Shown here: one piece after another, positions 16,342 through 64,000 of the stretch
Layout of the letters: each line of letters begins with the position of its first letter
How positions within the stretch are numbered: position 1 is the first letter of the stretch
The notes under the pieces: model-generated
Told to the model about the DNA's origin: nothing
Database searches by the model: none
What the model saw: only the letters and a program-made list of their open reading frames with translations
NCBI RefSeq assembly: GCF_018324685.1
Contig: NZ_AP023354.1
Coordinates: 1-64,000 of the forward strand
Source: Actinocatenispora sera
Lineage (GTDB): Bacteria > Actinomycetota > Actinomycetes > Mycobacteriales > Micromonosporaceae
DNA length: 64,000 nucleotides
Reading direction: 5' to 3'
Program-made: the position numbers and the translations under genes

Positions 16342-16875
16342 TCACGGCTGCGACGACAGGCCGCGGAGCCACTCGCGTACGACGGTGAAGTCGCGCTCGG
16401 TCAGCCCGTGCCGGGCGTCCACCCGGTGCAGCAGCGCCGGCCCGGAGTGATGCGCGTCGACCCAGGCCCGGTCCGCGTCGTTGATCTCGTCGTCCAGCCA
16501 GGCGAACGGCCGGCCTGCGGCCTGGTCGACCAGCGCCCTGGTCTTCCAGCTCAACGCGGCACCGGCGGCGCTCAGCGACCAGCTCGGATCCTCGGCGGCC
16601 GGCACCTCGCCCAGCTCCGCCACCGGCAGCTGGGGCAGTCCCAGCCGCGGTGCGACGAGCTCGTTCGCGTCGGCCATCCAGGCGGTGGCCCAGACCAGCT
16701 CGCACGACAGCGCCAGCAGCCGAGGACCGTGCGCCGGCGACAGCCGCGCGAGCAGCGGGTTCGCGTCGGTCTGCCAGCTCTCGTCCCAGGCCACGCTCGG
16801 CACGTCACCACCGACCGGCAGCAGCGTGCCGTCGACGTCCAGGAACAGCAACGGGCGGTCCACGGGGTCAAGCAC
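16342..16875 (-). CDS. HAD-like hydrolase-fold protein
   Basis: Protein of about 177 residues beginning with the HAD motif I LLFLDVDGTLLP, in which both Asp residues of DxD are present. Later parts carry LALSCELVWATAWMADAN and a DDEINDAD segment that may provide the acidic motif IV. It resembles short actinobacterial HAD proteins without a cap domain; the substrate is unknown. Two GTG starts are possible (16875 and 16863) and neither has a clear ribosome-binding site. It is divergent from the APH-type kinase gene 79 bases away. Confidence 0.75.
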   Translation of the reverse strand: MLDPVDRPLLFLDVDGTLLPVGGDVPSVAWDESWQTDANPLLARLSPAHGPRLLALSCELVWATAWMADANELVAPRLGLPQLPVAELGEVPAAEDPSWSLSAAGAALSWKTRALVDQAAGRPFAWLDDEINDADRAWVDAHHSGPALLHRVDARHGLTERDFTVVREWLRGLSSQP

Positions 16876-16953
16876 GCGCGCAGGATAGCGGGATCCGGTC
16901 GACCGACGGAACCGCTTTGCCGCCGGCCGGCGGCGGGCGCACACTGGTCGACC

Positions 16954-17793
16954 GTGACCGACGTACTCTCCTGGGCCGCCGAGCAGCTCGGCTGCCCGGT
17001 GCGCCGCCTCCGCCCGCTGACCGGCGGTACCCACGCCCGGACCGAGCTGCTCGCCACCGGCGACGGCCGCGAGGTGGTACTGCGTGTCTTCCCGGCCGGC
17101 GATCCCGCGGTGCAGCGGGAGACCCGGGTGTTGCCGCTGCTCGACGGGCTGGCCGGGCTCGCCCCGCGGCTGCTCGCGGCCGACCCGGACGGTGCCGCCA
17201 CCGGCCGGCCGACCCTGCTGGTCAGCCGGCTGCCCGGGGACGGCTGCCTGGCACCGGCCGACCCGCGGTCCTGGGCCCGTCAGCTCGGCCGCACCCTGGC
17301 CCGGATCCACGCCGTACCGGTGGGCATCGAGCTGCGTGACCCGCTCGCGGCGGGGCCGACCGGCGCGGGTCCGACCGGACCGACGGTACGGGAGCACTGG
17401 CACCGCCTCGTCGCGCAGCCGCGGGTGCTCACCCACCTCGACTACTGGTCCGGCAACACGCTGTGGGTGGGCGACCGGCTCACCGGCGTCGTCGACTGGT
17501 CCGGCGCGGCGTACGCACCCCGCGGCTTCGACGTCGCCTGGTGCCGCCTGGACCTGATCCTGTTGTACGACAGCCGGATCGCCGACGTGTTCACCGACGC
17601 CTACCGGTCCGCGGCGGGGTCACTCGACGACGTCGAGCTGTGGGACCGCAGCGCGGCGATGCACGCGTACGGCCAGATCGAGACCTGGGCGCCGAACTAC
17701 GCCGGGTTGGGCCGCCCCGACCTGGACGGCCCGGCCCTGCGCGACCGACTCACCCGCTGGACCGACACCCTCACCGACCGAACCCCGCGGTGA
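16954..17793 (+). CDS. Aminoglycoside phosphotransferase (APH)-family kinase
   Basis: Protein-kinase-like small-molecule kinase, 279 residues. Seen: the catalytic loop HLDYWSGN (H-x-D-x4-N Brenner motif) followed by VVDWS, which supplies the metal-binding Asp. The N-terminal lobe includes LTGGTHARTELL with a glycine-rich loop. Family members phosphorylate antibiotics, choline, homoserine or other hydroxylated compounds, so the name does not prove resistance. A CACACT -10-like box lies eight bases before the GTG and there is no ribosome-binding site, so the message may be leaderless. Confidence 0.82.
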   Translation: MTDVLSWAAEQLGCPVRRLRPLTGGTHARTELLATGDGREVVLRVFPAGDPAVQRETRVLPLLDGLAGLAPRLLAADPDGAATGRPTLLVSRLPGDGCLAPADPRSWARQLGRTLARIHAVPVGIELRDPLAAGPTGAGPTGPTVREHWHRLVAQPRVLTHLDYWSGNTLWVGDRLTGVVDWSGAAYAPRGFDVAWCRLDLILLYDSRIADVFTDAYRSAAGSLDDVELWDRSAAMHAYGQIETWAPNYAGLGRPDLDGPALRDRLTRWTDTLTDRTPR

Positions 17794-51394: not shown

Positions 51395-51856
51395 ATGCAG
51401 CTCAACGTGAGCCTGGCCGGTCGCAGCTACCCGCCGACCGAGCCGTACGAGGTCAGCCGGGAGCACATCCGGATCTTCGCCGAATCGCTGCACGACACCA
51501 ACCCGCTCTACCTCGACCCGGCCGCCGCGCGCGCCGCCGGCTACCGGGACGTGCTCGCCTCGCCGACGTTCCTGACCGTGCTGTCCGAGCGGGCCGAGCG
51601 CGCGCAGGTCGCGGCCGACACCGAGCTCGGGCTGGACTACAGCCAGACCGTGCACGGCTTCCAGCGATTCGTGCACCTGCGGCCGGTGCACCCGGGCGAC
51701 GTGCTCAACCTCGAGGCACACATCGACGACGTCCGCATCACCGGCGGGATCGGCCTGGTCACGGTCAGCTGCCGGGTGTTCCGGGACAGCACCGAACACG
51801 TCGCCACCATGTACTGCACGATGGTCGAACGGCCCGTCGGTGTGCCGCTGAGCTGA
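51395..51856 (+). CDS. MaoC-like (FAS1-type) dehydratase
   Basis: Hot-dog fold hydratase/dehydratase of 153 residues. Seen: AESLHDTNPLYLDPAAARAAGYRDVLASPTF, the N-terminal MaoC-like dehydratase signature, and the VHGFQRFVHLRPVHPGD segment. This type dehydrates beta-hydroxyacyl thioesters. AAGAGGA precedes the ATG at 51395. It is a short distance from a LAL regulator and a lipid-type operon on the other side, so it may supply their dehydration step, though this is a guess from neighbourhood. Confidence 0.85.
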   Translation: MQLNVSLAGRSYPPTEPYEVSREHIRIFAESLHDTNPLYLDPAAARAAGYRDVLASPTFLTVLSERAERAQVAADTELGLDYSQTVHGFQRFVHLRPVHPGDVLNLEAHIDDVRITGGIGLVTVSCRVFRDSTEHVATMYCTMVERPVGVPLS

Positions 51857-52316
51857 CCGCCGCGGGCGCGACCCGGACCCCGGGTCGCCGTTCCCGGGAC
51901 TCTCGGCCCTGGCGCGATCGGCGCAGGGCTCGGCGGAACCGGCTCGCGCGCGATGCGCAACCGGGCCCGGATGACAAGTTCTTGCCGGCGACGGCGACCG
52001 GGGCCGAGAAACGACCCGTGGTGGACGAGACTCGACGACGTCCCAGAGTCCACGCCGGGAGGTCGCAGACCACGACTCGTCACACGAAATCCTGGGGAGA
52101 ACCGGCGCCGGTTCGCGCGGCGCGCCAACGGTTCGACGGCCCATGCCCCGGGCCGCCGACGCCGCCGTGGCCTCGTCGCACGCCGGACCGGGCACGAACC
52201 TCGTACCGCGCCTGCCCGTCCTGGCGGCCCACCGCCGCGACGCCGCGGTGTGTGCGGGGCCGGCCGCCGCGATCGCCCCGCCTCTCGGACCCATCGAGAA
52301 TCGGAGGTACGAAACC
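51857..52316. other. Gene-free stretch before the second LAL regulator
   Basis: 460 bases with no convincing reading frame. The only clear element is the GGAGG at 52303 serving the LAL start at 52317. Longer in-frame translation upstream of that start is alanine/arginine-rich and unconvincing. Confidence 0.45.
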
Positions 52317-55148
52317 ATGTCGCCGGTCAGCCCAGCCGGAGCGCGCGAACCGCTGGTGGAACGGGTCGAGGAGCTCGACACGCTCAAGGTGTGCGTCGAA
52401 CGGCTGCTCGCGGGGTCGTCCGGCCTGCTCGTGATCGAGGGCAGTGCCGGCGTGGGCAAGACCTGCCTGCTGGCCGCCCTGGTGACGCTCGCCCGGCGGT
52501 CCGGCGCCCAGGTGCTCACCGGTTCGGGCGGGCCGAGCGAACCCGACATGCCGCTCGGCCTGCGCAGCCAGCTGTTCGGTCAGGACGGCCGCACCGAACC
52601 GGCCGACATGCAGCCGGAACGGCTCGCCGCGGCGTTCGACGCGCTGCACGGCAGGCTGGTCCGGCTGGCGGGTACCGGACCCGTGGTCATCGCCGTGGAC
52701 GACGTCCATCTGCTCGACGAACTGTCGTTGCGGTGGCTCGGTTTCCTCAGCCGGCGACTCGGTGAGCTGCCGGCGATCCTCGCCATCACCGGCCGTACCG
52801 ACGAGATCGCGGCCATGTCGTCGGACGCGCAGACCGACCTGCGGTACAGCCTGAACGCGACGACGATCCGGCCGGCCGCGCTCAGCCGGGCGGGCGTAGC
52901 GGCGGTGCTGCGGTCGCGGCTCGGCGCACCGATCGACGACGATCTCGCCGCCACCGTGCACCGGATGACGTCGGGCAACCCGCGGTTCGTCACCGAGGTC
53001 TGCCAGACCTTCGTCGCCGAGAACCTCGAACCCGGCGCCGTGGACCTGGCCGCGGTACGGCAGCTGGCACCGCCGGGCGTGACCCGGTACGTGCTGGGCC
53101 GGTTGCGGCGCAACGACCCCACCACGGCGGCCGTGGCCCGCGCGATTGCCGTCGTGGGCGGCGGTACCTGCGCGTCGATGATCGCGGCGATGTGCGGCAT
53201 GGAGCGCGATTCGGTCGCTGACGTCATCGCCGAGCTGGCCCAGCTCGGCATCCTGCGGGCCTCCGAACCCGCCACGTTCGTGCACCCGGTCGTGCGCAAC
53301 GCGCTCTATGCCAGCCTGCGCTCCTCGGAGCGCCAGCAGTACCACCGCAACGCCGCGGCGCTGCTCACCGAGCAGCACGGCGACCCGGCCCAGGTGGCGC
53401 GGCACCTGCTCGCCGGCAACCCGGCGATCGACCCGGACATGATCGACACCCTCTGCCGGGTCGCCGTCGACCTGATCGCGCGGGGCGAGCACGCCCTCGG
53501 TACCGAGTGCCTGCAGCGGGCGATCCACGGATCCATGTCACCGACGCACCGCGGCCGGCTCGCGCTGAAGCTCGGTTCGGCGCTGGCCGTGCACCATCCG
53601 GCGAGCGCGATCGCGCACCTGCGGCACGCGAGCATGGTGGTACGCCAGCCGGATCAGGTCAACGCCGCGCACCGGGCACTCAGCGAGGCGCTCGCCGGCG
53701 ACGGCCAGGTGCTGGAGGCCATCGAGGTACTCGACGAGTGCGCGACCCAGCTCGCCGGGGTCCGGCCGGAACTCGCGACCAGGGCCCGGGATTCGGCCAC
53801 CCTGCTGTCCCTGCTGCACGCCGACACCGCCCGGGAGGCCCGTTCCCGGCTGCCCACCGACCGGCCCCGCGGCGACGCGGCGCGCACCGTGCTCGCCACC
53901 GCCACCGCGGCGCTCGGGGCGGCCTGGGCCGGCAACGACCGGGAGTACTGGGTCCGTGCGCTCGCCGGCGTGGTCGACTCCAACGCGCTGACCAGCCTGC
54001 AGCCGATCGAGTGCATGGCGGTGGTGCTGCCGCTGCTGTACGCCGACCGGCTGGACCTGGCCGACCGGGTGCTCGGTCGGCTCGACGACGAGGTGACCGG
54101 CGCGGTGGCCGAGATCGCCGCGCTGCGGTCCTGGGTGGCGCTGGCCCGCGGGCACGTACCGGCGGCCGCGGACCAGGCCCGGCGGGCCGCCGCGGCGGTC
54201 GACGACGGCAAGGGCATCCCGCTGTACACCGACCACCGGTCGGCGCTGATCGTCACGCTCACCGAGCTGGGTGAGGCGGACGAGGTCAACCGGATCATCG
54301 ACCTGACCGCGCCGGCCGACGAGCTGCCGCCGCACTGGCGGTACACGCAGCTGCTCGCCAGCCGTGGCCGGATCCGGGTGGCCAGCGGCGAACTGCACGC
54401 CGGGCTGACCGACCTGCGCGAGTGCGGGCGCCGGCTGACCGAGTTCGGCGTGACCAACCCGGCGGTCAACCGCTGGCGGTCGACGACCGCCCTCGCGCTG
54501 GCCCGGGCCGGTGAGCCGGGCCGCGCCCGCCAGCTCGCCGACGAGCAGCTGCGCGACGCGCGCCGTTGGGGTACGCCGCGGGCGATCGGCCTGGCGCTGC
54601 ACGTTCGTGGCCTGGTGGCCGACGAGACCGCGGACCGGGCCCGCTACCTCAGCGACGCCGTCGACCGGTTGCGTGACTCCCCCGGGATGCTGGAACTGGC
54701 CCGGACGCTGATCGATCTCGGCGCCGCACAGATCGACTGCGGTACCGCCGCGCCGGCGCGGGACCTGCTGCGCGAGGCGCTCGATCTCGCCCAGCGCTGC
54801 GGCGCGGTGGGGCTGACCGACCGGGCCCGGCGGGAACTGGTCCGCAGCGGCGCCCGGCCGCGCCGCCGGACCGAGTCCGGGCTGGGCTCGCTGACCTCGG
54901 CCGAACGGCGTACCGCGCTGCTCGCCGCGCGGGGCCAGACGAACCGGGAGATCGCGCAGCAGCTGTTCGTCACGCAGCGCACGATCGAACTGCACCTGAC
55001 CAACACGTACCGCAAGCTGCGGGTGGCCGGGCGGGCCGGGCTGATCGCGCTGCTCGCCGAGGAGGCGGTCGAGCCGACACCGCTGCCCGGCCCGTACCCG
55101 GTGCCGTCGCCGCGAGAGGTGCACCGCTCCGACGGCCCGGCCGCCTGA
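52317..55148 (+). CDS. LAL-type LuxR-family transcriptional regulator
   Basis: Large regulator of 943 residues. Seen: Walker A GSAGVGKT at 42-49, Walker B VIAVDDVHLLDELSLRWLGF near 125-140, a long helical TPR-like middle and a C-terminal LuxR HTH (LTSAERRTALLAARGQTNREIAQQLFVTQRTIELHLTNTYRKLRV). The ATG at 52317 has GGAGG nine bases upstream. It converges on the minus-strand MMPL operon across a strong hairpin and is the best candidate activator of that locus. It is divergent in sequence from the LAL protein at 30-33 kb. Confidence 0.9.
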   Translation: MSPVSPAGAREPLVERVEELDTLKVCVERLLAGSSGLLVIEGSAGVGKTCLLAALVTLARRSGAQVLTGSGGPSEPDMPLGLRSQLFGQDGRTEPADMQPERLAAAFDALHGRLVRLAGTGPVVIAVDDVHLLDELSLRWLGFLSRRLGELPAILAITGRTDEIAAMSSDAQTDLRYSLNATTIRPAALSRAGVAAVLRSRLGAPIDDDLAATVHRMTSGNPRFVTEVCQTFVAENLEPGAVDLAAVRQLAPPGVTRYVLGRLRRNDPTTAAVARAIAVVGGGTCASMIAAMCGMERDSVADVIAELAQLGILRASEPATFVHPVVRNALYASLRSSERQQYHRNAAALLTEQHGDPAQVARHLLAGNPAIDPDMIDTLCRVAVDLIARGEHALGTECLQRAIHGSMSPTHRGRLALKLGSALAVHHPASAIAHLRHASMVVRQPDQVNAAHRALSEALAGDGQVLEAIEVLDECATQLAGVRPELATRARDSATLLSLLHADTAREARSRLPTDRPRGDAARTVLATATAALGAAWAGNDREYWVRALAGVVDSNALTSLQPIECMAVVLPLLYADRLDLADRVLGRLDDEVTGAVAEIAALRSWVALARGHVPAAADQARRAAAAVDDGKGIPLYTDHRSALIVTLTELGEADEVNRIIDLTAPADELPPHWRYTQLLASRGRIRVASGELHAGLTDLRECGRRLTEFGVTNPAVNRWRSTTALALARAGEPGRARQLADEQLRDARRWGTPRAIGLALHVRGLVADETADRARYLSDAVDRLRDSPGMLELARTLIDLGAAQIDCGTAAPARDLLREALDLAQRCGAVGLTDRARRELVRSGARPRRRTESGLGSLTSAERRTALLAARGQTNREIAQQLFVTQRTIELHLTNTYRKLRVAGRAGLIALLAEEAVEPTPLPGPYPVPSPREVHRSDGPAA

Positions 55149-55193
55149 ACGGCTGCCGGGAACCGCGATCGAGGCCCGCAGCCCCGGCACAGC

Positions 55194-55230
55194 GGTCCCG
55201 GCATCGCCTCGCCGGGGCGATGCCGGGACC
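55194..55230. terminator. Bidirectional terminator between LAL and MMPL genes
   Basis: Fifteen-base perfect stem GGTCCCGGCATCGCC/GGCGATGCCGGGACC with a seven-base loop between converging genes. Confidence 0.8.
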
Positions 55231-55235
55231 CGTGT

Positions 55236-57482
55236 TCAGTGGTGACCGAGGCCGATCCGGTCGCTGAGCCGCCGCATCCCGGCCGGCGACCACCAGGCCG
55301 CGCGGCCGGTCAGCCGCAGGAAGATCGGTACCAGTACGCCGCGGATCAGGGTGGCGTCCACGACGATGGCGAGGCCCGCACCGATGCCGAACAGCTTCGC
55401 CACCGACACCCCGGACATCGCGGTGGAGAAGAAGGTGATCGCCAGGATCACCGCCGCCGCGCTGACGATGGAGCCGCTCATCCCGAGCCCGACCCGGACC
55501 GCACCGCGCGGATCACCGGTCGACTCGTACGTCTCCTTGATCCGGGACAGCACGAACACCTCGTAGTCCATCGACAGCCCGTACGCGACGCAGAGCACCA
55601 GCACCGGCATCGACACCGCGATCGGTGACGGGGTGAAGTTCAGCGGCCCGGACAGGTGCCCCTGCTGGAACACCCACACCAGGATGCCGAGGATCGCCGT
55701 CAACCCGAGCGCGTTGAGCAGTACCGCCTTGATCGGAACCAGCAGGCTGCCGGTGGCGAGGAACAGCAGCACCATCGTGACGAGGATGGCGAGCGCGATC
55801 GCGAGCGGCAGCCGATCGGTCAGCGCCGAGTCGATGTCCAGCAGCTGCGCGGACATGCCGCCGACCCGCACCGTCCGGTCGCCCGGTACCGGCGTCGCCC
55901 GGACCGCCTCGGCGAGCTTCTTCCCGTTGTCGGAGTAGGGCGTCACGTCGTTGAGCACCTGCAGGTAGACCGCGTCACCGGTGTGCATCGCGGCCGCCTG
56001 GCCGGGCGCCGGCCGCGCCACCCGCGCGCCGTCGGCGTACCGCCCGGTGGGCGCGTTGACCGCCACCACGTGCGGCAGCCGGGACAGCGCGGTCGCGTAC
56101 CCGTCGAGCGCGGTGCCGTTGGCGTCGCCCAGCCACCGGTCGGTGGTGACCGCAACCGCGCCCTGCTGCTCGGCGGCACCGGGGAACTGGGTACGGATGG
56201 TCTGGCTGGCCTGCCGGCCCTCCGACGACGTCGGCAGCACCCGCTCGTCCGGCACGTTGAGCTGGATGGACCGCAGCGGGGAGGCGGCGACGACGAACAT
56301 CGCCAGCGCGACCAGGCCGAGGATCAGCGGTCGGCGCATGCTGATCCCGGCGATCCGGCCCCACAGCCGGCGCTGCGGTTCCCGGGCCGGCCTGCGGCGC
56401 CGGATCGACCACTTGTCGACCCGGTCGCCGAGCAGCATCAGCGCCGCCGGCAGCGGCAGCAGCGCACCGATCGCGGCCACCGCCACGACGGTCACCCCGG
56501 CGAACGCGAACGACCGCAGGAAGTCCTGCTTGAACACCAGCATGGTGAGCAGCACCGCGGCAACGATGCTGGCGCTGAACAGGACGGTACGCCCGGCGGT
56601 GCGCATGGTCGTCGACAGCGCGGCGGCCTTGTCCAGCCCTCTCGCCCGTTCCTCCCGGAACCGGGACACGATCAACAAGCTGTAGTCGATCGCCAGGCCC
56701 AGTCCCAGTGCGGTGATCAGGTTCAGCGCGAACACCGAGATCGAGGTCAGCCGGCCGAGCCCGTCGAGCACCGCGAACGAACCGAGGATCGCGAACACGC
56801 CGATGAACAGCGGCAGCAGCGCGGCGATCACCCCGCGGAACACGAAGAACAGCAGGATCAGCGTCAGCGGCAACGCCACCAGCTCGGACATCCCGAGATC
56901 GGCGTTGAGCTGATCGCTCATGTCGTTGTTGATCTGCAGGATGCCGCCGAACGTGACGTGCACCCCGTCCCGGTGCCCGGCGAGCTTGTCGTGCAGCTGC
57001 TTCGCCGCCTTGCCTGAGGCGTCGTCGTCCCCGGCGACCCGGGCCAGGACCAGCCCGTACGAGCCGTCCTTGCCGACCATCGTCGGGTCGGTGCCGCCGA
57101 CGTACGAGCCGACGACGGTGACCCCCGCGTGCGCGCGCAGCGTGGCGACGATCTGCCGGCCGGCGCGCTGCGCGTCGGTGCCGGCGATCTTCCCGTCGTC
57201 CGCTCGGACCAGCACCGACAGGTTCGGTTGGGTGGCCGGGAAGTGCCGGGACAGGACGTTGGTGGCGGCCACCGAGTCGGAGGCCGGGTCGTCGAAGCCG
57301 CCGTTCTTGAGCAGCGCGGTGGCGCTCCCGGCGAGCACCACCCCCGCCACCATCACCAGGAACGCCAGTACGAGGATCAGCCGCGGCCGGCGCAGCGCCA
57401 GCGCCAGGCGCCGCCGCACCGGACCGCCCACCGGGGGGTCCGCGGTACCGGTGTCGAGCTGACCGGACGAGATCACATTCAC
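55236..57482 (-). CDS. MMPL family lipid/drug exporter
   Basis: RND-superfamily integral membrane protein, 748 residues, with about 12 hydrophobic segments in two repeats and two large extracellular loops, as in actinobacterial MMPL transporters of lipids and drug-like molecules. Seen: LGLAIDYSLLIVSRFREERARG and, in the second half, VAYGLSMDYEVFVLSRIKETYESTG, both conserved MMPL segments. The start is the GTG at 57482. It is the last gene of the lipid-type operon and probably exports its product. Confidence 0.9.
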   Translation of the reverse strand: MNVISSGQLDTGTADPPVGGPVRRRLALALRRPRLILVLAFLVMVAGVVLAGSATALLKNGGFDDPASDSVAATNVLSRHFPATQPNLSVLVRADDGKIAGTDAQRAGRQIVATLRAHAGVTVVGSYVGGTDPTMVGKDGSYGLVLARVAGDDDASGKAAKQLHDKLAGHRDGVHVTFGGILQINNDMSDQLNADLGMSELVALPLTLILLFFVFRGVIAALLPLFIGVFAILGSFAVLDGLGRLTSISVFALNLITALGLGLAIDYSLLIVSRFREERARGLDKAAALSTTMRTAGRTVLFSASIVAAVLLTMLVFKQDFLRSFAFAGVTVVAVAAIGALLPLPAALMLLGDRVDKWSIRRRRPAREPQRRLWGRIAGISMRRPLILGLVALAMFVVAASPLRSIQLNVPDERVLPTSSEGRQASQTIRTQFPGAAEQQGAVAVTTDRWLGDANGTALDGYATALSRLPHVVAVNAPTGRYADGARVARPAPGQAAAMHTGDAVYLQVLNDVTPYSDNGKKLAEAVRATPVPGDRTVRVGGMSAQLLDIDSALTDRLPLAIALAILVTMVLLFLATGSLLVPIKAVLLNALGLTAILGILVWVFQQGHLSGPLNFTPSPIAVSMPVLVLCVAYGLSMDYEVFVLSRIKETYESTGDPRGAVRVGLGMSGSIVSAAAVILAITFFSTAMSGVSVAKLFGIGAGLAIVVDATLIRGVLVPIFLRLTGRAAWWSPAGMRRLSDRIGLGHH

Positions 57483-57542
57483 CTGCTGGCTCCATTCGAC
57501 GAGTGTGTTGCCCTACCGGGGCCCCCACGGAGGGTGGGCGAG

Positions 57543-58247
57543 TCAGTGCCCCATGCCCATGCCGCCGTCCACCGGTACCACCGCACCGGTGATGTACCCG
57601 GCGTCCTCGCTGACGAGAAACCGCGCCACCCGGGCGATCTCGGTGGGCGAGGCGGCCCGGCCGAGCGGGATGCCGGCGAGCGCCGCGGTCCGTTGCCGGT
57701 CCGACAGCACCGCGGTCATGTCGGTGTCGACGAACCCGGGTGCCAGCGCGTTGGCGGTGATGCCGCGGCTGCCGAGCTCCCGGGCCAGCGACCGCACGAA
57801 GCCGACCATCCCGGCCTTCGCCGCGGCGTAGTTCGTCTGCCCGGCGGCACCCTGCAACCCGACGACCGACGACACCGCGAGGACCCGGCCGTAGCGGGCC
57901 TTCACCATGCCCCGCACCACCCGGCGGGTCACCCGGAACGTGCCGGTCAGGTTCGCGTCGAGTACCGCGGTGAAGTCGTCCTCGGACATCGTGGCGAGCA
58001 GCGTGTCGCGGGTGATGCCGGCGTTCGCGACGAGGACCTGGACCGGCCCGTGCCGGTCGGTCACCGTGGCGAGCGCCGCGTCCAGCGAAGCCGGATCGGT
58101 GACGTCGCACCGTACTCCGAGCAGGCACGTCGGCGGTTCGCCGGAGCGGTAGGTGATCGCCACCCGGTCGCCGTCCGCCGCGAGGGTCCGCGCGATGGCG
58201 AGGCCGATCCCCCGGTTGCCGCCGGTGACCAGTACCGACCGGGTCAC
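57543..58247 (-). CDS. FabG-type 3-oxoacyl-ACP reductase (SDR)
   Basis: NADPH-dependent short-chain reductase, 234 residues. Seen: TGGNRGIGLAIARTLA cofactor motif, NAGITRD, SSVVGLQGAAGQTNYAAAKAG with the Ser-Tyr-Lys triad, and a C-terminal VDGGMGMGH tail typical of FabG. It would reduce ketoacyl-ACP made by the KAS in the same operon. Its GTG start at 58247 overlaps the stop of the desaturase gene by four bases. Confidence 0.9.
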   Translation of the reverse strand: MTRSVLVTGGNRGIGLAIARTLAADGDRVAITYRSGEPPTCLLGVRCDVTDPASLDAALATVTDRHGPVQVLVANAGITRDTLLATMSEDDFTAVLDANLTGTFRVTRRVVRGMVKARYGRVLAVSSVVGLQGAAGQTNYAAAKAGMVGFVRSLARELGSRGITANALAPGFVDTDMTAVLSDRQRTAALAGIPLGRAASPTEIARVARFLVSEDAGYITGAVVPVDGGMGMGH

Positions 58248-59188
58248 GAGCGGCTCCGCTCGCGTCGCGCGTTGCGTTCCGCCCGGCGGGTGACGAACCG
58301 CTCCGCGGCGACGTCGACCTCGCGCAGGAACTCGGCGAGCTGCTCGCGCGCCTGCTCCGCGGCCGGCGGCAGGTCGGTGCGGTCGAACACCTTCCAGTAC
58401 CGCAGCACCGGCATGATGACCGCGTCGTGGTGCAGCCGCAGGTCGTAGATGCCGGCGTTGGCGATGATGGCGGAGTACCGCAGAAAGTCCGGCTGCCCGG
58501 CGCCGGGCATCTCGAAGGAGAGCACCACGTCACGGATCGCGCACATCATCGCCTCCGGGGCGAGCTCCAGCGCCGCCTCGACCAGGTTGCGGTAGAAGAC
58601 CATGTGCAGGTTCTCGTCGGCGGCGATCCGCGCCATCAGCTGGTCGCCGATCGGGCAGCCGGTCTCCCGGCCCGCGTTGCGGTGCGACACGCGGGTGGCG
58701 AGCTCCTGGAACGACACGTACGCGAGGTTCTCCAGCAGGCCCTGTGGCCCGTCCTCGATGCCGGCGCTCATCAGCCGCATCCGGCGCCGTTCCAGGTCGA
58801 CCGGGTCGACGCCGCGGGTGACGGTCAGGTAGTCGCGCATCGCGACCGCGTGCCGGTTCTCCTCCGCGGTCCACCGGTCCAGCCAGGTCCGCCACGCGGC
58901 GTCCCGGCCGAACGCGGTCGCGATCACCCGGTGGTACGAGGGGAGGTTGTCCTCCGTCAGCAGGTTCACGATCATCGCCGCCTTGGCGACGGGCGTGAGC
59001 CGGGACTGCTCGGGTGCCCAGTCCTCGCCGCCGAGGAACGCGAAGTTGCGGCCCTCGCTCCACGGCACGTAGTCGTGCGGGTTCCAGTCCCGCGCGACCG
59101 ACAGGTGCCGGTCGATGTTGGCCGCCACCACCGGTTCGAGTTCGCCCAGAAGGCCGCGTTCGACGGTGGGGTCGAGGATCCGGGTCAT
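58244..59188 (-). CDS. Acyl-ACP desaturase-like diiron protein
   Basis: Soluble ferritin-like diiron protein, 314 residues. Seen: AEENRHAVAMRDY and ADENLHMVFYRN, the two EExxH-like iron-binding motifs separated by about 90 residues, as in FA_desaturase_2 (acyl-ACP 9-desaturase-like) proteins. It could insert a double bond into an ACP-bound chain. A different oxidation cannot be excluded. Its ATG at 59188 overlaps the stop of the YqcI/YcgG gene (ATGA); its stop overlaps fabG. Confidence 0.87.
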   Translation of the reverse strand: MTRILDPTVERGLLGELEPVVAANIDRHLSVARDWNPHDYVPWSEGRNFAFLGGEDWAPEQSRLTPVAKAAMIVNLLTEDNLPSYHRVIATAFGRDAAWRTWLDRWTAEENRHAVAMRDYLTVTRGVDPVDLERRRMRLMSAGIEDGPQGLLENLAYVSFQELATRVSHRNAGRETGCPIGDQLMARIAADENLHMVFYRNLVEAALELAPEAMMCAIRDVVLSFEMPGAGQPDFLRYSAIIANAGIYDLRLHHDAVIMPVLRYWKVFDRTDLPPAAEQAREQLAEFLREVDVAAERFVTRRAERNARRERSRS

Positions 59189-60000
59189 ACCAAGCCCTCC
59201 TCGGCTTGCTGCGTGCTGCTCTCGGTTGCCTGATCGGTCGGCCGGAACGGGCAGGTCCAGTCGTCCTCGACCAGCCGACCGGAGTACATGACGGTCTCCG
59301 GGCGCTTCGCGTCGAACTGCCGGAGACTCGGGTTCTCGCTGCCCTGCACCCGCCGGTCCCGCATCCGTACCGTCTGCTGCATCCGCGGCATCACCCCGGC
59401 GTCGCGCAACAGGTCGAACTGGGCGTGCGAGTTGAAGATGAGCGTCGGCCACGCGGTCCGACGGGCCCACCGGGACGCGCCGGGATGCATGCCGACGATG
59501 AAGAACGCGCGTTCGGCGAAGCTGAAGGAGAAGCCGTACTCGGTCGGGTCGGTACCGACCTCGGCATCCCAGCGGCTGTGCCGCACGTCCAGCTCGTGCA
59601 GCAGCTGGAGCTGGCGCCACAGCAGGTCCTCGAACCCCTGCTCGGTGGCGGTGCACGGGCCGTCGAACGCGGCCACGAACGAGGCGTAGCGGTCCGGCCG
59701 GATCGGGAACTCGGCCACGAACTCCCACAGATCGCAGGCGACCGCCGCGGCGGCGTCCTCGGTACCGAGTCGCGGGTAGCAGCCGAACCGGTAGTCGCCG
59801 CGGCGCATCGCCGAGCGCGCGACGACGCACGGATAGGTCTCCGACAGCGCCATCGACCGGAACGTCTCGTGCACCATCGTCGCGGCGGCGTCCGCCGGGC
59901 CCTCCGCCGGCTGCAGCCGCATCAGCCGCTTGCCGCGCATCCCGTGGTACGAGCGTCGTACGTCCCCGCCGAGGTACGGGTTCGCTGCGCGATCCTGCAT
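59185..60000 (-). CDS. YqcI/YcgG family protein (possible heme-dependent N-oxygenase)
   Basis: Protein of 271 residues. Seen: ETYPCVVARSAMRRGDYRFGCYPRLG near residue 50, FEDLLWRQLQLLHELDVRHSRWDAEVGTDPTEYGFSFSFAERAFFIVGMHPGASRWARRTAWPTLIFN in the middle, and DDWTCPFRP near the end. These match the YqcI/YcgG family in order and spacing. Characterised members include GntA, a heme-dependent N-hydroxylase in guanitoxin formation, but most are uncharacterised. GAGGGG precedes the ATG at 60000. Followed by a four-base overlap with the desaturase gene. Confidence 0.8.
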   Translation of the reverse strand: MQDRAANPYLGGDVRRSYHGMRGKRLMRLQPAEGPADAAATMVHETFRSMALSETYPCVVARSAMRRGDYRFGCYPRLGTEDAAAAVACDLWEFVAEFPIRPDRYASFVAAFDGPCTATEQGFEDLLWRQLQLLHELDVRHSRWDAEVGTDPTEYGFSFSFAERAFFIVGMHPGASRWARRTAWPTLIFNSHAQFDLLRDAGVMPRMQQTVRMRDRRVQGSENPSLRQFDAKRPETVMYSGRLVEDDWTCPFRPTDQATESSTQQAEEGLV

Positions 60001-60094
60001 CACGTCGCCCCTCTGCAACGGTGTGTTCGGGTGCGGCCCGCGGCCCCGGGCCGTCCTGCCGGCTGTCCGGACGGCCCGGGCCACGCACCGGCGG

Positions 60095-60349
60095 TCAGGC
60101 CGGGGTCGGCGCCACCGCGTGCTCGATGAAGTCCACCAGGTCGCCGACCGTGTGCAGGCCCGTCATCGCGTCGTCCGGCAGCTCCACGCCGTACTTGTCC
60201 TCGATGGACACCACCACTTCCACCATCGACAGCGAGTCGATGTCCAGGTCGTCGCGCAGCGACTTCTCCCGGGTGATCTCACCGGCCGCGGCACCGCCGA
60301 GATCCTCGATGACGGCGGCGAGGTGGGCCAGGATCTCTGAGTCGGACAT
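60095..60349 (-). CDS. Acyl carrier protein
   Basis: ACP of 84 residues. Seen: the phosphopantetheine attachment motif DIDSLS with Ser39, and LPDDAMTGLHTVGDLVDFIEHAV, the helix 3-4 region. It carries the acyl chain for the KAS, FabG and desaturase of the operon. AGGAGGAG precedes the ATG at 60349. A dedicated ACP in the operon supports a specialised rather than a housekeeping role. Confidence 0.92.
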   Translation of the reverse strand: MSDSEILAHLAAVIEDLGGAAAGEITREKSLRDDLDIDSLSMVEVVVSIEDKYGVELPDDAMTGLHTVGDLVDFIEHAVAPTPA

Positions 60350-60420
60350 TGCTCCTCCTTGAACGCGGGCGGCCTCCGGCCGCCACTCTGAGAGTTCGGA
60401 AAGTCGGTTCGGCGACGGGA

Positions 60421-61674
60421 TCAGCCCTGCCACCGGCGGACCACGGCCACCGCGTTGTGCCCGGCGAAGCCGAACGAGTTGCTCATCGCCACGTCGACCC
60501 GATGCTCCTGTGGCTTGTGCGGCACGTAGTTCAGCTCGGGGTCCTCGGGGTTGTCGCAGTTGATCGTCGGCGGCACCCGGCCGTCGAGCATCGCGTTGAC
60601 CGTGGCCATCAGCTCCACCACGCCGGCCGCGCCGATCATGTGCCCGGTCATCGACTTCGTCGACGAGATCGGGATGCGCAGCGCGTGCTCGCCGAACAGG
60701 GTGCGGATCGCCTGCGACTCGGTCCGGTCGTTGAGCACCGTACTGGTGCCGTGCGCGTTGATGTAGTCGATGTCCTCCGGCCGCACGCCGGCGTCGGTCA
60801 ACGCGGCCTGCATCGCCTGCCGGGCACCGCGGCCGGTCGGGTGCGGCGCGGTCGGGTGGTACGCATCGGTGCTCGCGCCGTACCCGATCACCTCGGCGAG
60901 GATCAGTGCGCCGCGGGAGAGCGCGTGCTCCAGCTCCTCCAGTACCACCATGCCGGCGCCGGCGGACACGACGAATCCGTCCCGGTCGACATCGAACGGG
61001 CGGCTGGCCCGTTCCGGGTCGTCGTTGCGCTTCGACAGCGCCCGCGACATCGCCGCGGAGCCGACGTCGACGGAGGTCACCGAGTTGTCCGAGCCGCCGG
61101 CGAGCACCACGTCGGCGTTGCCGTACATGATCATGCGCATGCCCATGCCGACCGCGTCGGTGCCGGACGCGCACGCGGTACTGATGGCTCCGCTCGGCCC
61201 CTGCGCGTTGACGCGCAGCGCCACCTCACCGGCCGCGCTGTCGATCGCCGCGCCCGCGGTGATCCACGGGGTCAGGCCACGGAATCCCTTCTCCACCATG
61301 TTGATCGCGCTGTGGTGCAGGATCAGCGTGGCGCCGAACCCGGAACCGACGAGCACGCCGACCCGCGGCGCGATGTCGTCGTCGATCGTCAGCTTCGACT
61401 CCTCCAGCGCCTGCAGCGTCGAGGCGATCGCGTAGTGCGCGAACCGGTCGATCCGCCGGGAGACCTTGCGCTCCATCCAGTCGGTCGGCTCGAATCCCTT
61501 GATCTCGCCGGCGATCCGCACCGGCAGGCCGCTCGCGTCGAACGAGGTGATCGGGCCGATGCCGCTGCGGCCGGCCATCAGCGACGCCCAGAACTCGGCG
61601 ACGTTGAGCCCGATCGGGGTGATCGCCCCGCGGCCGGTGATGACCACCCGGCGCCGTGCTGGTTGTGGGTTCAT
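60421..61674 (-). CDS. Beta-ketoacyl-ACP synthase II-type
   Basis: Condensing enzyme, 417 residues. Seen: active-site Cys168 in ISTACASG, NAHGTST with the first catalytic His, and ISSTKSMTGHMIGAAG with the Lys and second His. All three are intact, so it is an active KAS and not a chain-length factor. The start is placed at 61674 because GGAG and AAGG-like bases lie upstream; an upstream ATG at 61704 is less likely. It elongates the chain on the ACP next to it. Confidence 0.92.
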   Translation of the reverse strand: MNPQPARRRVVITGRGAITPIGLNVAEFWASLMAGRSGIGPITSFDASGLPVRIAGEIKGFEPTDWMERKVSRRIDRFAHYAIASTLQALEESKLTIDDDIAPRVGVLVGSGFGATLILHHSAINMVEKGFRGLTPWITAGAAIDSAAGEVALRVNAQGPSGAISTACASGTDAVGMGMRMIMYGNADVVLAGGSDNSVTSVDVGSAAMSRALSKRNDDPERASRPFDVDRDGFVVSAGAGMVVLEELEHALSRGALILAEVIGYGASTDAYHPTAPHPTGRGARQAMQAALTDAGVRPEDIDYINAHGTSTVLNDRTESQAIRTLFGEHALRIPISSTKSMTGHMIGAAGVVELMATVNAMLDGRVPPTINCDNPEDPELNYVPHKPQEHRVDVAMSNSFGFAGHNAVAVVRRWQG

Positions 61675-61727
61675 GACCTTCTGCTCCGATGCTGTCGCGT
61701 GCACCGCGGCGCGGTGCAGTGGGGCCG

Positions 61728-63419
61728 TCAGCGGTCCTCGACCGCCGGGAAGTCACCGTCCAGCTCGTCGAGGTCGGCCGGGACGTCGGACAACGCCACC
61801 GGTACCTCGACCACCGCCACCCGGCCGGCCGCGCACTCCTTGAGCGCGCGGTCCAGCTCGGCGTCGATCGCGTCGGCGGTCGATACGACCGCCCGATGTA
61901 CCGCGGCGGGCAGCTCGCGCAGTCCGGGCGAGGCGACGAAACGGAACCGGTCGCCACCCTCGGATCGCTTGTCCCACTGCGACTGCAGCCAGCCGTACCC
62001 GCCGTTGTCCAGCACCACGAACAGCACGCCGATCCGCTGCTCGGCCAGTACCGCGAGGTCGGCGCCGAGCATTCCGAACGCGCCGTCGCCGACGAGTGCC
62101 ACGACGGTACGGTCCGGCGCGGCGAGCTTGACCCCGCCGGCCGCGGCGGCGCCGAAGCCGAGGCTCGTCTGCTCCGACGGGACGATCGAGTTCGCCGGCC
62201 CGGCGCAGCGCCAGAACGGGAAGAAGTAGGACCACATGTCCTGCAGCCCGTTCTCCTGCACCAGCACGTGCTCCGCCGGCAACCGCTCGGCCAACGAGGC
62301 GAGCAGGGCGGCGATGCGCGGCGCGCTCGATGCCCGCGCCGCGGCCGTGTCCGCTTCGACCCGCTGCCGCGCCCGTACCGACACGGCACCCGCACGGTCG
62401 ACCCAGACCGGGTCGGGCTCACGGCGGCCGACGGCGAGCCGGGCACACCAGTCCTCGACCACGCGCCCGGCGTCCGCGACCACCGACGGCCCGGCGAACT
62501 CGGTACTCAGTTCGGTCGCGTCGATGTTGACCTGCACCACCGGTACGCCGGCCGGTGCGAAGCCGGTGCCGAACGTCGCGGTCTCCTCCAGCCGGCTGCC
62601 CAGCGTGATCACCAGGTCGGTGTCGCGCCACAGCTCGACCGCCTCGGTCGGCGAGTACAGGCCGCAGACTCCGCAGCACAGCTCGTGCGCCTCGTCCACG
62701 GCACCCCGGCCGGACGCGGTACTGAACACCGCCGCGCCGAGACCGGTCGCCAGCTGCTCCACCACGGCGGAACCGTTGCGGTGCCGCATCCCACCGCCGA
62801 CCACCAGGATCGGGCGCCGGCTCGCCCACACCGCCGACCACGCGGTCGCCGCGGCGGCCGCGTCCGGCCCCGGGTACTGCGGGGCGACGTCCCGCCACGG
62901 CCGCGTCCGGGGTACGACGGCATCGGACAGGTCGTCGGCGATCTCCAGGTACACCGGCCCAGGCGCGCCGGCCGCCGCCGTCGTGAACGCCCGTTCCAGC
63001 GCCGGGACGAGCCGGTCCGGATGGTCGACCCGGTACGCCCACTTGGTCAGCGGCCGCAGCAGCGCCACCTGGTCCAGCTCCTGGAAGGCCCGCGCACCGC
63101 GCCGGGCGACCGCGGTACCGGCGGCGAGCACCACCAGCGGCGCGGCCGACGCCGCGGCCTCCAGTACCCCGGTCAGCACGTTGGTGCTTGCCGGCCCCTT
63201 GCCGATCAGGCACACCGCCGGGTTGCCGCTCTGCAGCGCGTACCCGGTCGCCATGAAGCCGGCGTTGCGCTGGTCGCGGTTGAGCACGAACCGGATCTCG
63301 CCGTCCCGCAACGCATCCAGTACGGTCAGGTCGTCGGCCGGCAGGCCGAACACGGTGTCCACGCCGCGGGTGGTCAGGAAGTCGACCACCGCCTGCCACG
63401 CGCCGGGATACGAGGTCAT
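61728..63419 (-). CDS. ThDP-dependent enzyme of the acetolactate synthase-like family
   Basis: Thiamin-diphosphate enzyme, 563 residues, with three domains: PYR (GVDTVFGLPADDL...), central and PP (GDGAFGM near 441 followed by LDNGGYG near 470, the ThDP-Mg motif). The usual catalytic Glu of the PYR domain lies in an R-H-E-Q-type stretch; here the aligned stretch is NRDQRNAGFM, with Gln50 at that place. So the activation of ThDP may differ. It could be a carboligase or a decarboxylase. The start is 63419, which overlaps the stop of the gene before it (ATGA). Confidence 0.86.
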   Translation of the reverse strand: MTSYPGAWQAVVDFLTTRGVDTVFGLPADDLTVLDALRDGEIRFVLNRDQRNAGFMATGYALQSGNPAVCLIGKGPASTNVLTGVLEAAASAAPLVVLAAGTAVARRGARAFQELDQVALLRPLTKWAYRVDHPDRLVPALERAFTTAAAGAPGPVYLEIADDLSDAVVPRTRPWRDVAPQYPGPDAAAAATAWSAVWASRRPILVVGGGMRHRNGSAVVEQLATGLGAAVFSTASGRGAVDEAHELCCGVCGLYSPTEAVELWRDTDLVITLGSRLEETATFGTGFAPAGVPVVQVNIDATELSTEFAGPSVVADAGRVVEDWCARLAVGRREPDPVWVDRAGAVSVRARQRVEADTAAARASSAPRIAALLASLAERLPAEHVLVQENGLQDMWSYFFPFWRCAGPANSIVPSEQTSLGFGAAAAGGVKLAAPDRTVVALVGDGAFGMLGADLAVLAEQRIGVLFVVLDNGGYGWLQSQWDKRSEGGDRFRFVASPGLRELPAAVHRAVVSTADAIDAELDRALKECAAGRVAVVEVPVALSDVPADLDELDGDFPAVEDR

Positions 63420-64000
63420 CCGCGTACCGGGCATTCGTCCGCCACCACCTTCGAGATCAGCAGCGGCTGGGCCCAGCGCCGCTTGCGATGACTGACGTAG
63501 TTGGCCATGATGCCGCGGCCGCCGAACGGGCGGTTCCCGTCGTCGACGTCCAGCAGGGTCCGGTCCACCGCCACCACGTGCCGCTTCCCCAGCTGCTCCA
63601 CCAGATCCGGCGCGTGCCCGTACACCATCGCGCCCATCGCCCGGTCCTGGAACGACGGCTCGGTCAGCCGGGTGCGCAGCTGTTCCCGGTCGGTGTAGCT
63701 GACGACGTTGAACACCGGGCAGAACAGTTCGGTCAGCGACATCGGCGCATCGAAGTCGCGCAGCAGGATCGTCGGATGCACCTGCCGGGTACGGAAGTCG
63801 ACCGCGCCGCCCTGCACGATGTAACCGGCGTTGCGCGGCAGGTACTCGGTCACCGCGGTCAACGCGCTGTCGTAGCAGATCGGTCCGTAGTCCGCGGCCG
63901 GGTCGGCGCAGTCGCCGAACGTCATGGCGGACAGTCGTTTCCCGATCCCCTCGACGAAACGGGCCGCGTCCTGCTCGGGGACGAAGAACACGTCCGGGCC
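63416..64000 (-). CDS. Aldehyde dehydrogenase-family protein, C-terminal part (cut by window end)
   Basis: Partial minus-strand gene of at least 195 codons, running off the right edge. The visible part matches the end of ALDH proteins: VDFRTRQVHPTILLRDFDAPMSLTELFCPVFNVVSYTD corresponds to the PTVL...E-x-F-GPV block, and PFGGRGIMANYV to the PFGG segment. The catalytic Cys and NAD site lie beyond the window, so I cannot say whether it is an active dehydrogenase. Its stop overlaps the ThDP gene start (ATGA). Confidence 0.72.
   Translation of the reverse strand, partial: GPDVFFVPEQDAARFVEGIGKRLSAMTFGDCADPAADYGPICYDSALTAVTEYLPRNAGYIVQGGAVDFRTRQVHPTILLRDFDAPMSLTELFCPVFNVVSYTDREQLRTRLTEPSFQDRAMGAMVYGHAPDLVEQLGKRHVVAVDRTLLDVDDGNRPFGGRGIMANYVSHRKRRWAQPLLISKVVADECPVRG

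Follow-up and report, generated by a model that had tools for sequence, protein, structure and literature searches.

The window analysed here (bases 1-64000 of the 7,044,238-base single contig of an Actinocatenispora-type genome, 64,000 nucleotides in all) ends within a lipid biosynthesis cluster of about 28 kb (about 51.4-79.6 kb), whose left half it contains. The core set of this cluster, consisting of a polyketide synthase (PKS) with a C-terminal oxoamine synthase (AOS), a ligase-ALDH fusion, a ThDP enzyme, KAS II, an acyl carrier protein (ACP), a YqcI protein and FabI, recurs in nine genomes. Three of these belong to Actinocatenispora (two of them by inference), four to Streptomycetaceae, and one each to Planobispora and Streptosporangium. 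This recurrence places the gene set far beyond chance. The dedicated lipid cluster with an ACP-borne chain that a preliminary description of the window had proposed is supported. We tentatively propose, with somewhat less than even confidence, that the product is a lipid with both an alpha-aminoketone and an N-hydroxylated guanidine, which would interfere with arginyl-tRNA synthetase (ArgRS).

Cluster Extent and Gene Content

The genes and the models that they match are given in Table 1. All genes named in the preliminary description were recovered in place with domain profiles, including the flanking MaoC-like dehydratase and LAL regulator, and the coordinates confirm its three stop-start overlaps in the minus-strand operon: ligase-ALDH/ThDP (63416 with 63434 or 63419), YqcI/diiron protein (59185/59188), and diiron protein/FabG (58244/58247). 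The "ALDH-like gene" at the window edge does contain an ALDH domain, but it continues past the edge as a ligase-ALDH fusion of 900 aa, of which the ALDH makes up the C-terminal half. The PKS-AOS (a possible entry point for nitrogen), the halogenase-like protein and FabI all lay outside the window and were missed by a reading confined to it.

Table 1. Genes of the cluster, with positions on the contig and supporting matches (positions above 64000 lie beyond the window).
Feature	Position	Strand	Evidence
HadA/MaoC-type (3R)-hydroxyacyl-ACP dehydratase	51395-51856	+	PF13452 9e-28; HadA model 92.9 bits, cut-off 180 not reached
LAL-type (AAA + LuxR) regulator	~52143-55148, true start probably further in	+	PF13191, PF00196
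MMPL lipid exporter (predicted)	55236-57482	-	PF03176 5e-71; MmpL3 model 385.5 bits, cut-off 1400 not reached
FabG 3-oxoacyl-ACP reductase	57543-58247	-	PF13561; FabG models
Acyl-ACP desaturase-like diiron protein (FA_desaturase_2)	58244-59188	-	PF03405 3.9e-69; EENRH and DENLH motifs
YqcI/YcgG (GntA-family) heme-dependent N-hydroxylase (predicted)	59185-60084	-	PF08892 9.7e-51; NF041366 247.2 bits
Acyl carrier protein	60095-60349	-	PF00550; NF002147 102.3, cut-off 84
KAS II (FabF)	60421-61704 (61674 alternative start)	-	TIGR03150 543.8, cut-off 493.75
ThDP-dependent enzyme, acetolactate-synthase-like clade, catalytic Glu to Asp	61728-63434	-	PF02776/00205/02775
AMP-ligase-ALDH fusion, 900 aa	63416-66118 (63416-64000 in window)	-	PF00501 and PF00171
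KS-AT-ACP-AOS PKS	66187-71154	-	Domain models and motifs
LuxR-type regulator	71350-73680	-	
Cation/H+ antiporter	73878-75293, true start probably lower	-	
Sulfotransferase	ends 75125	-	
DUF4386 protein	76213-77028	-	
FabI	77021-77785	-	
Flavin halogenase-like protein	77811-79622	-	PF04820 9.7e-21

The desaturase-like protein of the preliminary description resembles acyl-ACP desaturases, combining the FA_desaturase_2 profile with both diiron motifs; Kitasatospora sp. MAA4 has a truncated copy. Flavin-dependent halogenases carry the motifs GxGxxG, WxWxIP, and FxxPxxSxG. All three are found in the halogenase-like protein (GGGPGGS, WGWFIP, and FVDPLFSSG), which also matches the QhpG and LodB monooxygenase/maturase models and the halogenase model CmlS, all below their cut-offs; halogenation is a candidate activity of this protein. 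The FabI/DUF4386/halogenase block is conserved in Planobispora and Streptosporangium, and no halogenase-like gene was seen among the Streptomycetaceae. We set aside a siderophore or NRPS product, as no NRPS occurs among the listed genes of the Actinocatenispora cluster region; the gene lists of the loci were drawn up with a simple GC-position filter rather than a gene finder.

We consider the cluster, of which the window holds only a part, to be so far undescribed. A search of the open-access literature gave no description of it among the matches listed, in agreement with the preliminary description, and, as far as this search reached, the extension to the right that the latter had suggested as a test met no known, described cluster. 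Among plasmids, YqcI relatives occur in 17 records, all below 60% identity. The central 4.5 kb of the cluster matched 11 plasmid records, none covering 80% of the query: the five listed are short ketosynthase or ACP matches, and four of the 11 match at 99% identity or more, each over less than 80% of the query.

A PKS Ending in an Oxoamine Synthase

In prodiginine biosynthesis, RedL-type PKSs consist of KS-AT-ACP followed at the C-terminus by an oxoamine synthase, which uses an amino acid to release the chain. The PKS described here shares this layout: its KS, AT, and C-terminal AOS were found with domain models (bioF and serine palmitoyltransferase being the best for the AOS), and motifs are present for the KS, AT, ACP (GFDSL), and AOS (SGTLSKS), the ACP being recognised by its GFDSL motif only and not by Pfam. 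No KR or DH appears among the listed domain matches. In contrast to RedL-type enzymes, the PKS has no N-terminal ligase, a separate ligase-ALDH fusion being present instead, and a YqcI protein is added; no pyrrole or prodiginine genes were recognised in the cluster. The PKS-AOS explains how nitrogen can enter the chain, and an alpha-aminoketone head is a well-founded prediction for the product.

Which amino acid the AOS would use bears on the origin of the guanidine. One cyanobacterial AOS reportedly uses arginine, and condensation of the chain with L-arginine or N-hydroxyarginine would give an arginyl ketone lipid mimicking arginyl-adenylate. Such a head would best explain the spare ArgRS genes described below, because ArgRS should require both the alpha-amine and the guanidine. 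In the YqcI family, ChmN takes free arginine as its substrate, according to PMC11177257 and PMC12866846. However, nine 20-kb stretches that show no match to ALDH, ThDP, or YqcI contain PKSs whose AOS domains share 57-72% identity with the Actinocatenispora AOS, and the AOS domains of the clusters described here are not recovered as one clade; on these two grounds an arginine-specific AOS was downgraded. Furthermore, the closest solved structures in the PDB are serine palmitoyltransferases, and the four NRPS-type loci have YqcI without an AOS match. We consider an arginine-derived head unlikely.

The same comparison raises a more ordinary explanation, namely a long-chain-base (sphingoid-like) lipid cluster, where YqcI would have another or a lost role and the linked ArgRS would be a passenger. 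Synthases of the KS-AT-ACP-AOS-like kind are no rarity in the absence of YqcI and the cassette: at 1e-75, 26 of 394 genomes give an AOS match, and 17 of the 30 listed AOS places lie in open frames of more than 1000 aa (Actinocatenispora and G369 included). This explanation appears improbable to us and is the least favoured of those considered, given that YqcI is present once per genome in the eight genomes searched, each time in or near the cluster and with its heme Cys kept, and that a spare ArgRS is linked in every Streptomycetaceae member.

The YqcI Protein, a Predicted Heme Enzyme

The YqcI protein passes the cut-offs of its family profiles (PF08892, 173 bits against a cut-off of 27; the GntA model NF041366, 247.2 against 145). 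One Cys is invariant in 19 of 19 YqcI rows (18 distinct sequences). A profile of six members searched against the PDB matched only AglA chains (three distinct sequences), and the invariant Cys aligns with AglA Cys44, a position counted by hand on the alignment. Cys44 of AglA and Cys47 of ChmN are the heme ligands, and the characterised YqcI/YcgG members AglA, GntA, and ChmN are guanidine N-hydroxylases, according to PMC11177257 and PMC12866846; for DcsA, the activity reportedly lacked confirmation in vitro. The cluster protein has in common with these enzymes the Pfam and NCBIfam family, the heme-thiolate Cys, and the gate residues Phe152 and Phe182 of AglA; it differs in having His at AglA Arg179, in its placement in a lipid cluster, and in its fusion to MaoC in relatives. 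The AglA-type Cys makes the previously suggested N-oxidation reasonable, but the characterised members act on guanidines and not on plain amines. By inference from its family, a guanidine is the predicted substrate.

Several loci link YqcI to the acyl pathway through MaoC/HadA. The two genes adjoin in the Streptomycetaceae clusters and are fused in locus L090, and in three other loci (L076, L080, L115) the same MaoC-like sequence lies upstream of YqcI, in frame; three of six frames of the YqcI family match both.

The Ligase-ALDH and ThDP Cassette

We collected 80 loci anchored on the ALDH, dropping matches that covered 45% of the query or less. A ThDP gene is present in 66 of them, the class III lanthipeptide synthetase LanKC in 36, and a GNAT in 36. 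YqcI lies within 10 kb of the ALDH in only eight, and the cassette is accordingly not guanidine-specific. The YqcI loci include one set with an AOS and another with NRPS, the feature shared being the acyl chain; in an ALDH tree (FastTree), they take two changes against the LanKC rows, a count restricted to YqcI and LanKC rows that leaves 34 unlabelled rows uncounted and L017 and G369 out as Planobispora duplicates. The cluster of genome G089 is, by eye, of aromatic polyketide type.

In many of the counted loci, ligase, ALDH, ThDP, and KAS genes adjoin LanKC and a GNAT, and these loci resemble class III lanthipeptide/fatty acid clusters of lipolanthine type (microvionin, nocaviogua, goadvionin; PMC10435860 and PMC10373908). 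According to these papers, the fatty acyl tail has a guanidino group in microvionin, nocavionin, and nocaviogua. The Actinocatenispora cluster differs in having no LanKC, its chain ending on an AOS and not on a peptide. A lipolanthine was rejected as product: LanKC is absent from the 10 kb around the A. comari ALDH (L039) and from the listed Actinocatenispora genes, and no LanKC match was found in the stretches of the Actinocatenispora cluster (G000), G966, A. comari, or Streptosporangium.

Residue counts were made on 68 ThDP and 81 ALDH rows, homologues below 80% query coverage being dropped and L017 and L040 left out as Planobispora duplicates. The catalytic Cys and Asn of the ALDH are each kept in 81 of 81. 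The general base of hydrolytic ALDHs, which we take to be Glu268, has no equivalent in any of the 81: Glu is absent from three candidate columns, and the aligned column holds F (58), Y (18), L (4), or H (1). A hydrolytic ALDH was rejected on this basis. For the ThDP enzyme, the closest PDB entries are acetolactate synthase (6lpi, 1e-51) and BbmA (2e-50), and the position aligned with their catalytic Glu is Asp in 66 of the 68 homologues; with this change and a TIGR00118 score of 252.4 against a cut-off of 538.35, a true acetolactate synthase was rejected.

In LuxE/LuxC and in carboxylic acid reductases, acyl activation is coupled to a reductase or ALDH-type partner that holds the acyl group on Cys. 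The fusion resembles them in this respect, but it matches Pfam Aldedh and not LuxC, and no carrier domain was found. It could act as a carboxylic acid reductase-like enzyme turning an acid into an aldehyde, which the ThDP enzyme would join to pyruvate to give an acyloin (alpha-hydroxyketone), the product being an acyloin or aminoketone lipid. Loss of the general base with Cys and Asn kept would suit an enzyme that reduces thioesters, the fusion has its ligase at the N-terminus and its ALDH at the C-terminus, and the ThDP enzyme is nearest to acetolactate synthase. Other observations speak instead for supply of a starter unit. In the 36 LanKC loci, C1 of the acyl chain is presumably spent on the amide; the gene next after the ThDP gene encodes KAS III, which fits starter supply, in G442 and in L052, L086, and L088, three of four Bacillota loci examined (L065 being the exception); and the ThDP Glu is almost always Asp. 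The absence of the hydrolytic Glu from the ALDH is counted for the starter role as well. A carboligase is a possible function of the ThDP enzyme, with the starter-unit role favoured, and we regard the reductase direction as doubtful, if the strongest of the competing explanations.

A Spare Arginyl-tRNA Synthetase

In all four Streptomycetaceae members, the cluster has a second ArgRS gene as its neighbour, and the Kitasatospora copy has all three ArgRS domains. Among 145 matched Streptomycetaceae genomes, seven have two ArgRS matches, and four of these seven are cluster carriers; 55 of 200 genomes had no match in the loose first search, hence the 145, and G906 and G918 were left out of the closer comparison. 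An extra ArgRS gene in this position suggests self-resistance to an arginine mimic. No cluster-linked ArgRS was found in the five other members (one copy each in four genomes, none in the G966 stretch). Two ArgRS genes also occur in genome G850, with 88% and 64% identity to the copy of the Kitasatospora cluster, and the 20-kb stretches around them contain no cluster signature genes, which speaks for the explanation with ArgRS as a passenger. We found no paper in the open-access literature that brings together arginyl-tRNA synthetase, self-resistance, biosynthetic gene cluster, and natural product.

Proposed Pathway and Its Significance

In the pathway that we favour, with each chemical step, the guanidine, and the target predicted from sequence, the ThDP enzyme and ligase-ALDH would convert a 2-oxo acid first to an aldehyde and then to an activated acyl group, which the dedicated ACP would carry as the starter, the favoured starter being a guanidino acid from arginine. 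KAS II, FabG, MaoC/HadA, and FabI would lengthen the chain and the diiron protein would desaturate it. The KS-AT-ACP module would then add one malonyl unit, and the AOS would condense the chain with an amino acid under decarboxylation, releasing it as an alpha-amino ketone. The YqcI enzyme would N-hydroxylate the guanidine, the halogenase-like enzyme may chlorinate, and MMPL would export the product. Interference with ArgRS is proposed because the Streptomycetaceae clusters carry a spare copy. What the sequence itself shows is the genes with their domain order and motifs, their recurrence in nine genomes, and the linkage of the spare ArgRS. Taken as a whole, the preliminary interpretation is partly supported.

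Some points run against the favoured pathway. No aminotransferase was recognised by eye among the gene families present in at least four of the 80 loci (functions of unlabelled families being judged by eye from one representative each), most loci are without YqcI, five members have no linked ArgRS, G850 has its ArgRS pair with no cluster nearby, the AOS is close to cassette-free AOS, and AglA Arg179 is His. A ligase at the N-terminus of the fusion is compatible with the opposite direction as well, from acid to aldehyde.

More speculatively, and on balance doubtfully, the cluster may represent a new antibiotic family, lipids with an alpha-aminoketone end and an N-hydroxyguanidine aimed at ArgRS and produced by at least nine actinobacteria, with a spare ArgRS protecting one branch, and the starter cassette of ligase-ALDH and Glu-to-Asp ThDP enzyme may be a general, unrecognised route to polar-ended fatty acyl groups in Actinomycetota and Bacillota. 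The spare ArgRS makes the question of the target directly testable. If the favoured pathway is right, it would point to a natural inhibitor class for arginyl-tRNA synthetase, extend the YqcI heme enzymes to lipids, and offer a way into the acyl cassette that was counted at 80 loci, among them 36 that also have a lanthipeptide synthetase.

Extent and distribution of the cluster

Every gene that the preliminary description had named between 51395 and 64000 was confirmed by Pfam or curated-model profiles, and the stop-start overlaps that it claimed at three joints are all real. The ALDH-like gene at the window edge is indeed an ALDH, but only as part of a larger fusion with an AMP-forming ligase. 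The genome of A. sera is a single 7.04-Mb contig, of which the window constitutes bases 1-64000, and beyond the window the fusion is followed by a polyketide synthase ending in an alpha-oxoamine synthase (PKS-AOS) and, at higher coordinates and also on the minus strand, by genes for a LuxR-type regulator, a cation/H+ antiporter, a sulfotransferase, a DUF4386 protein, FabI and a flavin halogenase-like protein. Since the FabI, DUF4386 and halogenase genes recur as a block in Planobispora and Streptosporangium, we assign them to the cluster. The extent, gene content and conservation of the cluster are well founded.

Coordinates of the features discussed
Feature	Genome or locus	Coordinates	Strand
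ThDP enzyme	A. sera	61728-63434	-
AMP-forming ligase-ALDH fusion, 900 aa, extends beyond window	A. sera	63416-66118	-
KS-AT-ACP-AOS polyketide synthase, 1655 aa, beyond window	A. sera	66187-71154	-
Flavin halogenase-like protein, last of the genes beyond window	A. sera	to 79622	-
Diiron desaturase remnant	Kitasatospora sp. MAA4 (L140)	16455-16991	
Cytochrome bd oxidase and 2-isopropylmalate-synthase-like genes	Planobispora takensis (L033), G369:C35	46834-49120 and 52927-54282	
Repeat protein	L021, G442:C3	12840-13286	
YqcI-dehydratase fusion	L090	16456-17553	
AurF-type protein	L115	4858-5895	
Cluster-type ArgRS	L131, G850:C35	75924-77465	
Cluster-type ArgRS	L132, G850:C1	207304-209064	

The core set (PKS-AOS, ligase-ALDH, ThDP enzyme, KAS II, ACP, the YqcI/YcgG protein or YqcI, and FabI) is present in nine genomes: A. 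sera, its congener G966, Actinocatenispora comari (the nearest named relative by ALDH domain, 98% identical to that of A. sera), Planobispora takensis, Streptosporangium sp. KLBMP 9127, Kitasatospora sp. MAA4, Streptacidiphilus pinicola, S. anmyonensis and G890, from the same family as the last three. YqcI is single-copy in each of eight genomes searched, and lies inside or adjoining the cluster. Among 61 genomes of the window's family, ALDH was found at 1e-30 in three (A. sera, G966 and, at 50%, G937), with no match in the congener G929. Across 394 genomes sampled from the class, A. sera among them, YqcI (1e-30) and ALDH (1e-40) each occurred in 8, and both in two, A. sera (about 3 kb apart) and Planobispora (about 12 kb apart).

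The diiron desaturase gene of Kitasatospora sp. MAA4 is a truncated remnant of a gene that is longer in both Streptacidiphilus and G890, and the desaturase step may therefore be dispensable. Near the Planobispora YqcI we noted by eye cytochrome bd oxidase genes and a 2-isopropylmalate-synthase-like gene, possibly for resistance or precursors, or chance neighbours.

The ligase-ALDH-ThDP cassette

Scanning the ALDH alignment against genome contigs gave 112 pattern matches, with at least 80 loci confirmed. Within 10 kb of ALDH in the 80 loci listed, tblastn detected the ligase in 68, the ThDP enzyme in 66, KAS II in 64, FabI in 37, a class III lanthipeptide synthetase (LanKC) and a GNAT protein in 36 each, a ferritin-like diiron protein in 20, YqcI in 8 and KAS III in 7. 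The one LanKC tested by a curated model scored 919 bits against a cut-off of 575, and one ferritin-like protein matched R2-like oxidase models below cut-off. No aminotransferase was recognised by eye among gene families occurring in at least four of these 80 loci. In G442 the gene immediately after that for the ThDP enzyme encodes a KAS III, and the same order holds for three of the four Bacillota loci examined.

The ALDH Cys, Asn and second Glu are all kept in 81/81 aligned sequences. Because the general-base Glu is missing in all 81 (its column holds F, Y, L and once H), the enzyme is expected to hand the acyl group on to a thiol, or to act as a reductase, without hydrolysis. Judged by sequence, the ThDP enzymes form a clade of their own, near acetolactate synthase and the solved protein BbmA; 66 of 68 homologues have Asp where the catalytic Glu would stand. 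Conserved FGLPxDD and ENGLxDxWSY motifs mark this clade.

The cassette could reduce an acid to an aldehyde for ThDP-dependent carboligation to an acyloin, or supply a starter unit. We somewhat favour starter-unit supply, since in nocaviogua-type lanthipeptide lipids the acyl chain is reported to be joined through C1 (PMC10435860). The direction of the reaction can be proposed only tentatively.

In six Bacillota loci (L086, L088, L093, L104, L112, L052), the cassette and KAS III adjoin, by eye, a cysteine-synthase-type gene, in most cases also with threonine aldolase and ATP-grasp genes; an argininosuccinate-lyase-like gene lies beside the cassette in L052. The product here could be a lipid built on a small diamino acid. 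Near the G442 cassette and a LanD-like flavoprotein, a short protein of repeated near-identical segments looks like a multi-core RiPP precursor.

The YqcI enzyme

Membership of the YqcI family is well founded. The window protein scores above the GntA model cut-off, and a PDB search with a profile of six members matched only chains of the guanidine N-hydroxylase AglA (E 1.8e-5). One Cys, invariant in 19 aligned rows (18 distinct) including outgroup homologues, aligns with AglA residue 44; Phe152 and Phe182 are kept, and Arg179 is replaced by His. According to the AglA paper, residue 44 is the heme ligand, and the substrates hydroxylated by the six characterised family members are arginine derivatives; the chalkophomycin paper gives DcsA activity as lacking in vitro confirmation (PMC11177257 and PMC12866846 for the family). 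An N-hydroxyguanidine in the product is a reasonable prediction, and any source of its guanidine a tentative one.

L090 encodes a fusion of YqcI with a dehydratase of the MaoC/HadA type (Pfam), and the same sequence lies in frame upstream of YqcI in L076, L080 and L115. By eye, all four carry NRPS-like genes; L115 also has an AurF-type protein. In a FastTree ALDH tree, the YqcI loci require two changes when set against the LanKC rows, and starred branches force two; this count covers those two kinds of row and is indicative only. The acyl pathway is the part common to both sets of YqcI loci, those with an AOS and those with an NRPS, which argues that YqcI works on the acyl chain.

Chain release and the spare arginyl-tRNA synthetase

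The KS, AT and AOS motifs of the PKS-AOS are intact, and no reducing domain was listed in a domain profile search. Its AT looks malonyl-specific, carrying GHSVGE and NAFHT, which we take to be malonyl-specific motifs. Release is expected to yield an alpha-amino ketone, a well-founded prediction; the best solved relative of the AOS domain is serine palmitoyltransferase. Similar KS-AT-ACP-AOS proteins occur outside the cluster family. Because nine 20-kb stretches around AOS matches 57-72% identical to that of A. sera held no match to ALDH, ThDP or YqcI, and the AOS domains of cluster members were not recovered as a single clade, the amino acid is more likely a common one than arginine.

An arginine-like product is proposed on account of a spare arginyl-tRNA synthetase (ArgRS), a duplicated target enzyme being a classic sign of self-resistance. 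An ArgRS gene comes after those for YqcI and an MFS protein in three clusters, that of Kitasatospora and those of the two Streptacidiphilus species; the Kitasatospora copy has all three domains and scores 447 with the argS model (cut-off 261.65). These genomes have two ArgRS genes each, and A. sera, A. comari, Planobispora and Streptosporangium one. Among 200 genomes of the Kitasatospora/Streptacidiphilus family, ArgRS was matched in 145, with two matches in seven: the three known carriers, G890, G850, G906 and G918. G890 was located via its second ArgRS, which the whole cluster adjoins. Identity to the Kitasatospora cluster copy is 77-100% for the four spare copies, versus 47-53% for the housekeeping enzymes of the same genomes. 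Counting against a strict link, G850 has two cluster-type ArgRS genes (88% and 64% identical to that copy), and the 20-kb stretches examined around them held no cluster signature gene, showing an unrelated PKS ketosynthase instead. ArgRS is a tentative candidate for the product's target.

The cluster family is real and conserved, lies within known types of chemistry and, as far as the literature searchable here extends, is apparently without earlier description.
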